DNA from: a virus
IMG/VR virus record: IMGVR_UViG_3300049048_000097
Location: 1-44,695 of that record
Strand: one strand, 5' to 3'
DNA length: 44,695 nucleotides
Positions 9,670-44,695 of this stretch are shown one piece after another (the stretch's first letter is position 1; each line of letters starts with the position of its first letter). A program made the translations under genes and the position numbers. The notes beneath the pieces are model-generated. The model had not been told where the DNA came from, made no database searches, and saw only the letters and a list, made by a program, of their open reading frames with translations.

Positions 9670-9698
9670 ATAATAGTATATGCCAATTACCTTGTCAA
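9670..9698 (-). promoter_or_regulatory. Consensus leaderless promoter with flanking dyads
   Basis: On the minus strand, TTGACA (9698-9693), a 17-base spacer and TATTAT (9675-9670) are followed by 5 bases and the GTG at 9664. TGTCAA and TTGACA form a dyad just upstream. ATGCCAAT and its complement ATTGGCAT flank the region at about 40 bases, which looks like repressor sites. Confidence 0.78.
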
Positions 9699-9810
9699 AG
9701 ATTCATTTGACATTGCATTGGCATAGTGTCATAATTATTTAGGAATTAGTTTAGGACTAAACCTTCTGCTAGTCCGATGGTAGTATGACTAAAACTATCT
9801 ACCGAATATT

Positions 9811-10047
9811 ATGAAACAATTATATAAAACCGGACAAGAGGTATATGTACACAATACGGGGATATCTATTAATGGAGAATCTACATTGAAAGCCAAAATT
9901 ATAGAGTATAACCCTGACAAAAAAATGTATCTCGTTGAAACAATGGGTAAAGGAAGAAATTATCTTACATGTACTGAGGATCAAATCTCTTTAGAAGGTA
10001 CAGAAAATAACAACAAGATTGTACAAGGACGTGCAGTATCTTTATAG
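9811..10047 (+). CDS. Small SH3/KOW-like hypothetical protein (78 aa)
   Basis: 78 residues. The pattern YKTGQEVYVHN, then LKAKIIEYNPDKKMYLVE, resembles small beta-barrel (SH3/KOW-like) proteins. The last codons and stop overlap the first bases of the structured RNA region (TATAGTC at 10043-10049), so gene end and RNA start share sequence. Upstream (9728-9805) are several short inverted repeats but no clear promoter. Confidence 0.55.
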   Translation: MKQLYKTGQEVYVHNTGISINGESTLKAKIIEYNPDKKMYLVETMGKGRNYLTCTEDQISLEGTENNNKIVQGRAVSL

Positions 10048-10600
10048 TCTAATAGCCGTATGACTTGAAAAGGTCGGCTGATCTTAAGAATTTAATAAAG
10101 TCTATGTACGTAAGTTCGAATCTTACTCCCTTGGCAGGTTTGCATAACCATAAAAATAAGTTAGCAATAAATATAAAGGCTGAGGGATGCTCGAGCGGTT
10201 AGAGACATAGACTTTTACAGTTCTTAAAAAGTGAATCGTTTGCAGGTGTGGCGGAATAGAAACGCACATGGCGAGATGTACATTATTGGTTCGGATACTT
10301 AAAATATGCAAGGTAACTATACTAGTTTGCTAACCGTACTCAGTCGGCAAGTCAGTGGAAAGCTGATCTAGACAAATCCTTGCCACCTGCAAAGGGTTCA
10401 CTTAAAAGTAAATAGAAGTGTGTGAGAAAAGCCGGTACGTAGGATCGTATTGCCTACTAATCTGACTAGGCCTAACGAGCTAAGAAGTCATAAATAAGGT
10501 GCTAAGTTTGTATTGCTGTATAAGGTCGCTCTTTATACATCGTCCGTTTAGGATAAAGCAATAGAATGAGCTCTCACACTTTTGTTTGCTTAGAGATGAT
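10041..10600 (+). ncRNA. Large structured RNA containing a permuted tRNA; candidate split group I intron
   Basis: No protein-coding gene fits here. Upstream of the tRNA halves lie TATAGTC (10043-10049), like a group I S element, and a hairpin with a GAAA tetraloop (AGCCG..ACTT-GAAA-AGGT..CGGCT, 10055-10079), like P9. Downstream, ACTTTT (10211-10216) pairs with AAAAGT (10227-10232). TTTGCAGGTG (10239-10248) pairs with CACCTGCAAA (10384-10393). GGCAAG (10346-10351) pairs with CTTGCC (10379-10384) around TCAG-loop-CTGA, like P4-P5. GACTA (10464-10468), like R, could pair with TAGTC (10045-10049) as P7. GTGTGAGA (10420-10427) pairs with TCTCACAC (10572-10579). P3 and a canonical U-G P1 could not be placed, so the class is uncertain. 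Confidence 0.62.
10097..10217 (+). tRNA. Circularly permuted tRNA (3' half upstream of 5' half)
   Basis: The 3' half is 10097-10134: anticodon-stem strand TCTAT, a 4-base variable loop, T arm GTAAG-TTCGAAT-CTTAC (perfect), acceptor strand TCCCTTG and discriminator G. The 5' half is 10180-10217: acceptor strand TGAGGGA, then a D arm CTC-GAGCGGTTA-GAG, then the anticodon-stem strand. The halves fit: the acceptor stem pairs 7 of 7 (two wobbles), and ACATAGACT (10205-10213) pairs with AGTCTATGT (10099-10107) over 9 bp. A 45-base linker joins them, and no CCA is encoded. The anticodon depends on the junction. CTTTTAG would give UUU (Lys); CTTAAAG would give UAA, but the short variable loop is not leucine-like. 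Maturation would need joining of the halves, possibly by the flanking intron-like RNA. Confidence 0.72.
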
Positions 10601-10631: not shown

Positions 10632-10745
10632 ATGGATTTCGGCATAAAAAACAAAGATATTGTAAAGCTTTTAATAGCATTAGCTTTACTTGGATGTGTT
10701 TTAGGATCAATAGTAGGACATTTTATTAATGTCATGATGAAATAA
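10632..10745 (+). CDS. Small membrane peptide (37 aa)
   Basis: 37 residues. After MDFGIKNKD comes one hydrophobic span (VKLLIALALLGCVLGSIVG) and a short tail. It is a single-pass membrane peptide directly behind the structured RNA. No Shine-Dalgarno is seen. A toxin or holin-like role is possible but unsupported. Confidence 0.5.
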   Translation: MDFGIKNKDIVKLLIALALLGCVLGSIVGHFINVMMK

Positions 10746-10769
10746 AAACTATTTATTAAAGACTTCGAT

Positions 10770-10856
10770 AAGATAGCTTGTTGCCGAGCAGTTGCGAGCT
10801 ATCTTACCGGGGTCGGTCGGGGCAGTGCCGATCCCTTATTTTAAATTGCCCAGAGG
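10770..10856 (+). promoter_or_regulatory. Structured leader with two stems and a pseudoknot (riboswitch-like)
   Basis: Stem 1: AAGATAGCT (10770-10778) with AGCTATCTT (10797-10805), 9 bp perfect. Stem 2: GGGGTCGG (10809-10816) with CCGATCCC (10828-10835). The stem 2 loop GGGCA (10820-10824) can pair with TGCCC (10847-10851), which ends next to AGAGG (10852-10856), 11 bases before the ATG at 10868. That geometry, a pseudoknot next to the ribosome binding site, is typical of translational riboswitches or autoregulatory leaders. No known class was recognised. Confidence 0.6.
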
Positions 10857-20738: not shown

Positions 20739-23700
20739 TTATTTTTTATTGTTTAACAATGCAAGAAGTTCTTCCTTTTGTTCCTTAGGGATATAGAAAC
20801 TAGTAGACTCTTTACCAACTCCTTTGGCTATTAATAAATCACGTAACTCATTAACTTGCTCTCGCTTTCTACGTTCCGCCTCAACCTCTAAATTTTTCGA
20901 ATAAACTTTACCACCACTAAACATATTCATTAACATTTCTACCGATGGATCCCGTGTGGTATCTTGGGCTCGTTTAGTGAAAGTCATTGTAGGAGACACT
21001 AGAGGAATATTGCCCATTAGATATGCTTTTTCTCCATCAATAGTGATCTCTGTGATCTTTTTCTTTTTACCTGTTTTTTTGTCCTTAATTTCGCGTTGAA
21101 CCTCTTTATAGCCTAAAAAATTCTTTACAGATTCTGGAAGATCTCTATATCGTTCACCTGGCACACGCCCTGTAATCTCCTGTCCTGTGAAGGTATTTTT
21201 ATTAGTAGCAACCTCTATAGGCATTTTAGCCAGTGGATTTGACGAGCTGAGTAGGTTTTCTAACGTCTCTTTAGTATTACGTCCAAATGTAGAATTAAGG
21301 GCGCTTAGCGAATCACCTAAACCTGTAAATACATTTACATCTTGCGAGTCTTTACCACCCTTCTTAAATACTGCAAAAGGACCTTGTTTCATCCAATCCG
21401 GTAGAGCAGCCATGTCTTCATCAGAAAGCTCACTATCACTAATACCAGATTGCACATTATTTAAAAATTTATCCTGAGCTAGAATTCGTCCTGGTGTTTT
21501 GTTTAATTGCGTAAGTTTATGCTCTAGGTTTTGACGCAAAAAACTATAGAATGGAATAACCCTTCGCATCACATTCTTCTCGAATTGTGTAAGGTTCTCG
21601 TAATCAAATGCAGATAGACGAGTTAGCTTTGCCGCTTCAGTCCAATCCTTAGCCTTCACTTTATTATCAACAAAGTTCGCAATTCTGAACACATTCTCCC
21701 TCCATTGAAATGGATCTAACATTACTTTATCTAGGCCGCTATTAACCTTAGCTAGCCCCGTTTTAACCTTACCAAGTTCTTTTAATCTATCAGCTGTTTT
21801 ACCTACCTCGTCGCCAAACTGACTGCTACCAATAATATTGTTATTTAATACCTGATTATATATATCCTCAATATTACCAGCCTCCTTACCAAACTTGGCC
21901 CGAGCTTCGTCAAGTCCTTTTTCTATTGCGATCTTACGAAATTTTACAACATCAGCAGCTTTACCAAGGGCATTATCTCTGTTTCTAAATCCAGAAAATA
22001 CCATTCTAAAGGCATCATCTGTAGCATTTCGAACCTGGTAGGGAATGAAATTAGGACCTTTAGCTGTCACGGTCTTTTTGAAAAAAGAGGTGAATTTATC
22101 AACAACCTTCAAAACATCACGAGTGCCTTCATCTCCAAAGAACTCTGGTACATTTCTTTTAATAATATCTGCAGCATCTTTATTTGTATAAAGTTTTTTA
22201 CCATTACCAATAGATAGAGCTGTTAGATTAGGTGGTAATTTTGTGCCTCCAGTAAGTTTAGATTCTATCTCTTCTGCTGCAAAAAATATCTTGTTTCCAA
22301 CAGTATCTTTATTAACCTCAGGGCTTAGTAAATTTTGATAGAAATTGTCAGCGATCTGAGCCTTTTCTGTACGTTCCACTCCTGTCAAATATCGATCAGC
22401 TATATTTTTATTATATACAAGCCCAGCTGTTTCACCTTCTTTAGCCGTAGCAAATCTACGATCCATAGCGGATCCTTCCAGTTGTTTTACAGGATCAGAG
22501 ACACCTTGTGTAGCAATGGAGATCATAGGGTTTTTGCTACTTAGTTCACTAAACGTTTTACTAGAAACAAAGCCCTTATCCGCAATCTCTTTTTTAACCT
22601 TTGGATCATTAAGAATTTGACTTGCAAATTCTCCATATTCTTTTTGTATAAACTCTGGACGATATCCATCAATAAAGCCAGCCCTCGTTAGGTATCCTAA
22701 ACCTGGATCTTTGGCTATATCTTCAGGATTTAATATCTTTCTATCTGTTAGGGTTTTGAGGTTTTGCTCTCCAGTTCCAATGACCTGATCACGTAATTTT
22801 GTAAGCTGATCTATAGAGACTTGCGCCTTCGGGTCAACTACCTTACTATTGATCATCCGTAAAGCGTCTTGTGGAGAAACTGTCCCCTCAACAAGATGAT
22901 CAAAGACTTGCTTTGTTTCATCGGACATTCCTGCTAACTCATTTACAATTGGCGCATTTTTAACAAATGATAGTTCGCGAGCTGTATCAAGTTTATTACG
23001 GGTTCCTTTAGCAAGATCTTCCAAGGCTGTAAGTCCTTTGCTTTCTGCAAATTTATTGCCACGGAAGGCTTTGTTAAAAGTGTCCTCAAGAGTAGCTACT
23101 CCTTCTCCAATACCAGGAATTTCTTTCACACCACGAAAAGCTACACCCGCTGCAGTACCCAAAGGATTTGAACCAAATTTTAATGCTTGTACTAAATATG
23201 GATTTGTAGCAATCTGTTTACCAAATAATTTAGCTACATCATCACTAGAACCTTTCAGAATAGAACCAATACCTTTTTTACCTAATTGCTCAGCTCCTTC
23301 TTTTGCTAATCCCTTTACGGCACCACTAGTACCAAAGGTAAGATAGGTTAACGGATCTAATGCTACATCTCCTGCAAAGCCTACTACACCACGTGCTATA
23401 CGCGACCCTATATCATTGCCTTTTAGGATTCCAAAGTCCTTTAAAAGATCACTAGTGCCTTTTAAATCCTGTCCTTTATTACCAGTAAGTGTAGTGCTCA
23501 AACCCTCACTAATGTTTTCAAGGTAAGAATCCAGCATGTTCTTACCTTTCTTACTATCGTAAATAACATCAGGAATGGAACCTAAAGCAGAAGGCAGAGC
23601 TAGCAATCTTTGAACGAAGTTTGCCTTGGGTTTCTTTTTAACATTTAAAGTCTCTAAGAGCTGATTTAAAACATCAGGATCCTCCAAGTTAAAGCTAGAC

Positions 23701-44006: not shown

Positions 44007-44695
44007 CAAAAAAAGAAAAACTGGAAAGAAAGAAAATACCCGAGGTTATTTTTAATAAAGGGGATGGTAAGGGTAAGGTAGATAAAAAATATAATAGATA
44101 TACCTTTGATTTACCAATATCTAAACTACATTTTAGTAATAAAGTTAGAGATTATCTCGTCAACCTGTATATGATAGCTATTGAAAGTGATAAAACCTCA
44201 GACTTACTATTCTACCTCGCAGAATTGTCACTAGCTATAGAAAGACATAATGATAACCTTGATGAAAGGGAATCTGATGTAATTAGTTACGGTGGTTTAC
44301 CTGAACATGAAAAGGGGTTTTATTATCCAATACCTGATAGCCATGACACCCTATCAGAAAGAGATATCGATACAATACTCGCAGACCCACGCACATATGA
44401 ACATCTATATGATACAAATTGGTACATTGATAAAAAACTACTAGAATACAAGTCTGGAGAAATGTCAGTAGGTCAAACACTTTTACTTGGAGATAAAGGC
44501 CTACAAATAACCAGACTTGAATCAGAATATCCCTACCATGCGAAGATTAAGTTGGCTATAGTAGATGCAAAATTTTTAGCAACAGACTCGACAGAAGAAC
44601 CAGATACCAAAGAAACGACACTTTACCTAGATAGGATAATGGAAGACCCACATCACTTTCCAGAAATAATCATGGGAGGACCTTGGTATATAGAA
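44003..44695 (+). CDS. N-terminal part of the two-repeat protein spanning the contig ends
   Basis: The ATG at 44003 overlaps the previous stop (ATGA). The frame is open to the contig end and continues at base 2 of the window to the stop at 517, 360 residues in all. Residues about 40-90 hold the block shared with the upstream protein. Residues about 128-186 hold the first internal repeat (DPRTYEH, then NWYIDKK, then YPYHAKI). The full protein is thus one shared domain plus two tandem repeats. Confidence 0.85.
   Translation, partial: MTKKEKLERKKIPEVIFNKGDGKGKVDKKYNRYTFDLPISKLHFSNKVRDYLVNLYMIAIESDKTSDLLFYLAELSLAIERHNDNLDERESDVISYGGLPEHEKGFYYPIPDSHDTLSERDIDTILADPRTYEHLYDTNWYIDKKLLEYKSGEMSVGQTLLLGDKGLQITRLESEYPYHAKIKLAIVDAKFLATDSTEEPDTKETTLYLDRIMEDPHHFPEIIMGGPWYIE
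44569..44695. repeat. Terminal direct repeat, copy 2 (contig closure)
   Basis: Identical to bases 1-127. It should be counted only once when the genome is circularised. Confidence 0.93.

Follow-up and report, generated by a model that had tools for sequence, protein, structure and literature searches.

A circularly permuted tRNA-Lys-like element in a noncoding gap of a bacterial virus genome

The window analysed here is the whole of IMG/VR virus record IMGVR_UViG_3300049048_000097, a stretch of 44,695 nt. Its first 50 bases reappear at position 44568, and because of this terminal repeat of ~127 bp we regard the record as a complete circular phage genome of ~44.6 kb. The phage genes encode replication protein O, YqaJ, RecT, ParA, a MoxR/CobT-type ATPase pair, a terminase and an M23 peptidase, which is a gene set of bacterial-phage type. 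ARAGORN detected no ordinary tRNA in the whole window, and Rfam searches of the window at normal stringency detected neither a tRNA nor any other RNA. Among the families listed for the phage (25 of 43 from Pfam and 25 of 37 from PHROG), we recognised neither a splicing endonuclease nor an RNA ligase. Across 39 likely phage genes, AAA accounts for 66% of lysine codons. A Shine-Dalgarno-like motif was found in just seven of these 39 genes, which hints at a host initiating mostly without Shine-Dalgarno sequences.

The locus under study is a 580-nt noncoding gap flanked by two small ORFs, with long ORFs absent from the + strand between 10048 and ~10630. The following features lie around the element described below:
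9707-9735, + strand: sigma-70-like promoter TTGACA-17-CATAAT with an extended -10 (11/12), assigned by consensus match only
9811-10047, + strand: 78-aa ORF directly upstream of the RNA region, without a Pfam match
10053-10080, + strand: hairpin with a GAAA loop (fold z-score -2.2), separating the 78-aa ORF from the permuted element
10229-10403, + strand: second closed RNA domain, closed by a 20-bp inverted repeat that is 90% complementary
10406-10591, + strand: third closed RNA domain, with a helix of ~17-20 bp and without a family match

The promoter at 9707-9735 is the nearest strong one upstream of the RNA region, and the interval 9670-9735 holds two divergent near-consensus sigma-70 promoters, TTGACA-17-TATTAT on the - strand and TTGACA-17-CATAAT on the + strand. 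Downstream of the gap lies a 37-aa membrane-protein-like ORF (~10632-10745). Between this ORF and the recombination genes are two adjoining strong hairpins (10761-10833), the second of which resembles a terminator and has a T-rich tail.

The element opens a series of three closed, abutting and unusually stable RNA domains that occupy 10085-10591, with fold z-scores of -5.2 (10085-10226), -4.2 (10229-10403) and -3.1 (10406-10591). On the + strand, from 10085 to 10226, its parts follow each other as listed below; a 4-nt variable region separates the 3' strand of the anticodon stem from the T arm, and the 5' strand of that stem comes with CTTTTA:
10085-10092, + strand: outer helix, 5' strand, TAAGAATT
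10097-10107, + strand: extended 3' strand of the anticodon stem, AAAGTCTATGT, including tRNA positions 38-43
10110-10126, + strand: T arm GTAAG TTCGAAT CTTAC, with loop TTCGAAT
10127-10133, + strand: 3' acceptor strand TCCCTTG
10134, + strand: discriminator G
10135-10180, + strand: spacer of 46 nt linking the 3' and 5' acceptor ends
10181-10187, + strand: 5' acceptor strand TGAGGGA
10188, + strand: U8
10190-10204, + strand: D arm CTC-GAGCGGTTA-GAG
10205-10217, + strand: 5' side of the anticodon stem and loop, up to and including A37
10214-10216, + strand: anticodon TTT
10219-10226, + strand: outer helix, 3' strand, AGTTCTTA

The 3' half of the tRNA-like sequence therefore lies upstream of the 5' half, and the two halves are complementary in the acceptor and anticodon stems, which is the arrangement of a circularly permuted tRNA gene. 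The acceptor stem forms seven of seven pairs, as an earlier note on this DNA had claimed, including U.G at 1-72 and G.U at 2-71; the remaining five are Watson-Crick, and nine pairs form when the flanks are counted. The T stem (5/5) and D stem (3/3) pair fully. That note had also described an anticodon stem of nine pairs; the halves do pair, but in a longer helix of 11 bp (10097-10107 with 10205-10215), within which the anticodon stem proper joins 10207-10211 to 10101-10105. It had located both halves, whose coordinates we correct to 10110-10134 for the T arm, 3' acceptor strand and discriminator and 10181-10217 for the 5' acceptor strand, D arm and half of the anticodon arm. Beyond a 4x3 internal loop, a further 8-bp helix (10085-10092 with 10219-10226) lies outside the tRNA. 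Consensus tRNA bases are present at U8 (T10188), A14, G15:C48 (G10195/C10109), G18G19 (G10197-G10198), U33 (T10213) and TTC (10115-10117), and CCA is not encoded. The ends of the gene fall in the anticodon loop, at junction 37/38. ARAGORN called tRNA-Lys(ttt) on the halves, whether joined or circularised, two forms that the earlier note had proposed to check with other programs, and joins at 10217/10100 and 10216/10099 give an identical product.

We estimated how often such a pattern would arise by chance with a strict scanner that looks, in permuted order, for a T arm, an acceptor stem of 7 bp, a D arm containing GG and an anticodon stem of 5 bp. It found one match in both strands of the window, at this site, and four in 4,237 order-2 Markov resamples (189 Mb), so that ~0.002 matches are expected per genome, with the 11-bp helix left out of the count. 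The outer 8-bp helix has a chance probability of ~0.01 on its own, and none of 200 shuffles of 10085-10226 was as stable as the native sequence. ARAGORN slid over circularised segments, which is looser than the strict scanner, independently picked the same site; it also matched once across six resampled genomes and at one further cluster in the window. That cluster, a tRNA-Thr call at ~23460-23590 on the - strand inside a 1012-aa ORF, is probably a false positive. The permuted tRNA pattern at 10085-10226 is confirmed as real, and its origin by chance is very unlikely. When both arms are forced, the cloverleaf has an energy of -40.0 kcal/mol against a minimum of -40.9 kcal/mol, and the minimum-energy fold, better by 0.9 kcal/mol, has a different pairing in place of the T and D arms.

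Algae and archaea cut their permuted pre-tRNAs at a bulge-helix-bulge (BHB) motif, close them into a circle and then open the acceptor end (PMC3978253, PMC4033280). A true permuted gene in the phage would follow a similar course: ends near 10217 and 10100 would be cut and ligated to give a circular pre-tRNA, from which RNase P and tRNase Z would release tRNA-Lys(UUU). The geometry is that of the type II genes of Cyanidioschyzon merolae and prasinophyte algae, with the 3' half first, a 37/38 anticodon-loop junction, a short intervening sequence (46 nt, within the published range of 1-74 nt), flanks that lengthen the anticodon stem and no encoded CCA (table in PMC3978253). The archaeon Thermofilum pendens shares the permuted order, although its genes are of type IV (59/60), with intervening sequences of 1-7 nt and additional introns. 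The tRNA-Lys(ttt) call on the joined halves and the predominance of AAA among lysine codons also speak for a true gene. However, the phage element differs from the algal genes in residing in a bacterial virus, where a host splicing endonuclease is not expected, in its weak acceptor end and in missing a strict BHB: its junction region is a helix, a 4x3 internal loop and a helix, instead of two 3-nt bulges around 4 bp. Relaxed forms of the BHB do exist (PMC3978253). The acceptor stem of the element begins with U1.G72 and G2.U71, and C32-G38 is able to pair within the loop; together with the 3-bp D stem, these are weak features for a mature tRNA. No ligase was recognised among the listed families, and no bacterium is known to have a BHB endonuclease. 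We consider a true permuted gene unlikely. It is likewise improbable that a permuted gene of a bacterial virus yields a working tRNA without an archaeal or eukaryotic splicing endonuclease, whether through an unknown cut-and-join process or as a split, unjoined tRNA. The proposal of a permuted tRNA gene in a phage is supported for the architecture, by the sequence and the chance controls; as a functional joined gene it is not supported, given that the collections searched held no homologue for a covariation analysis, that no joining enzyme was recognised among the listed families, that the strict BHB and group I rules fail and that several tRNA features are weak.

Comparisons with covariance models also weaken a reading as a decoding tRNA. 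The 3' half matched the Rfam tRNA model weakly (14.5 bits), and the 5' half alone fell below a match to that model. A permuted-tRNA covariance model, R1, built from 27 ordinary tRNAs, gave ordinary tandem tRNA arrays as much as 48 bits and placed this site out of register at 19 bits, for which the long spacer and the 3-bp D stem are the probable cause; R1 is non-discriminating. Its strong response to ordinary arrays and weak response here are compatible with a relic of rearrangement, in which a tRNA was partially duplicated in tandem and the outer halves were lost, or with the collapse of such a tandem during assembly, which would hide an intact tRNA. The sequence is a metagenomic contig, and the tandem lysT and valU arrays of E. 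coli also look permuted to the same strict scanner. Yet direct repeats were not found around the site, the assembled genome has no ordinary tRNA and the helix extends past the tRNA into both flanks, so that we view a relic or collapse as distinctly doubtful. A phage att site within a tRNA gene was rejected, with both halves present and no integrase among the listed families.

Two other known routes to permuted order were compared with the site. A natural permuted intron-exon (PIE) group I intron, self-splicing to a circular tRNA, would produce this order, and group I introns occur in bacterial tRNAs (PMC4033280). The Intron_gpI model found no match, although it was run on the unpermuted sequence and a permuted intron could escape it. 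The group I rule requires that the base at -1 be a U pairing with a G in P1 and that the intron end in G (PMC11915505), and no junction restoring a 7-nt loop satisfies it, because base 10098 or 10099 is A; such an intron is very improbable here. A phage version of the permuted, two-piece tmRNA would share the identical order of T arm, acceptor, spacer and acceptor, with a long helix at the P2 position that replaces the anticodon arm. In contrast to tmRNA, the element has a D stem and no convincing tag frame. RF04321, the model of the permuted tmRNA tRNA domain, found no match, and ARAGORN made no tmRNA call at normal stringency. We regard a phage tmRNA as extremely improbable.

The neighbouring domains raise the possibility that the element forms the first domain of a ~500-nt structured noncoding RNA (10085-10591), one that mimics tRNA but does not undergo tRNA processing. 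The three abutting closed domains, with their low z-scores, lie in a + strand gap that is poor in ORFs, and the second domain also has tRNA-Leu-like ends, which resemble acceptor strands (GCAGGTG/CACCTGC) and a D arm (GCAGGTG TG GCGGAATAGAAACGC ... CACCTGC). The interior of that domain is not tRNA, its T-arm-like strands GCAAGG and CCTTGC being ~65 nt apart. Neither the second nor the third domain yielded a tRNA call, even after removal of any one segment. On the other hand, none of the large-RNA families of Rfam matched the region, lax thresholds included, and a bare four-way junction would need less than consensus T and D loops. A noncoding RNA of this kind seems to us an unlikely account.

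The earlier note had suggested a search of phage genomes for homologues, and none was found with blastn, patterns or flanking proteins. The region had no blastn match among phages and plasmids, and the joined tRNA gave nothing more than partial, weak matches in phages. DNA patterns (three on viral contigs and one on genome contigs) returned zero matches. With the patterns and proteins used, no homologue of the element was found in IMG/VR, INPHARED, PLSDB or GTDB genomes. The proteins led to no close relative: YqaJ matched at 26-29%, RecT at up to 40% over short segments and a portal-like protein in one short 51% segment, with none for the terminase or the replication protein. None of the loci fetched through flanking and structural proteins has the element.

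We tentatively favour, at somewhat less than even confidence, a nuclease-processed two-piece RNA resembling a permuted tRNA-Lys(UUU), which would serve as a tRNA mimic and not as an ordinary decoding tRNA. The element would be co-transcribed with its neighbours, and the RNA may fold as a cloverleaf clamped by the 11-bp and 8-bp helices in place of an anticodon loop. RNase P and a 3' tRNase would cut the acceptor loop, leaving two pieces held by base pairing. In its role as a mimic, the resulting RNA could for instance be a substrate of enzymes that bind tRNA, a decoy for them, or a processing signal. We favour two pieces because the permuted tmRNA, the one bacterial precedent, is cut at the acceptor loop and its two pieces are never rejoined (PMC11915505). 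The 8-bp helix outside the tRNA also counts for the two-piece reading, because an unselected rearrangement would not need it, as do the single strict match, the near-minimum cloverleaf, the retained tRNA signature bases and the lack of a splicing or ligase family among those listed. Against it count the failure to find a homologue, the loss of the T and D arms in the minimum-energy fold and the slowing of RNase P by leader-trailer pairing that extends the acceptor stem (PMC9433436). In favour of the two-piece reading, circularly permuted tRNAs have served as probes of RNase P (Nolan 1993, cited in PMC9433436). A two-piece RNA that stays unjoined, a mimic of tRNA or a relic of rearrangement are at least as likely as a joined functional gene.

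As a tRNA-Lys-like RNA of a phage whose anticodon region is altered, the element also resembles the phage-encoded tRNAs that counter tRNA-cutting defences, although those are described as ordinary contiguous genes, unlike the permuted element (PMC10264068, PMC11555353). A decoy role for the phage element is speculation. The permuted tRNA genes described so far come from unicellular algae and a single archaeon; the table of a 2014 review has no bacterial entry (PMC4033280), and we found no phage example in the open-access literature of PubMed Central. Should the element be in use, it would mean that bacteria or their viruses have a means of maturing a tRNA that is cut in the anticodon loop, or that a two-piece tRNA-like RNA can serve them.
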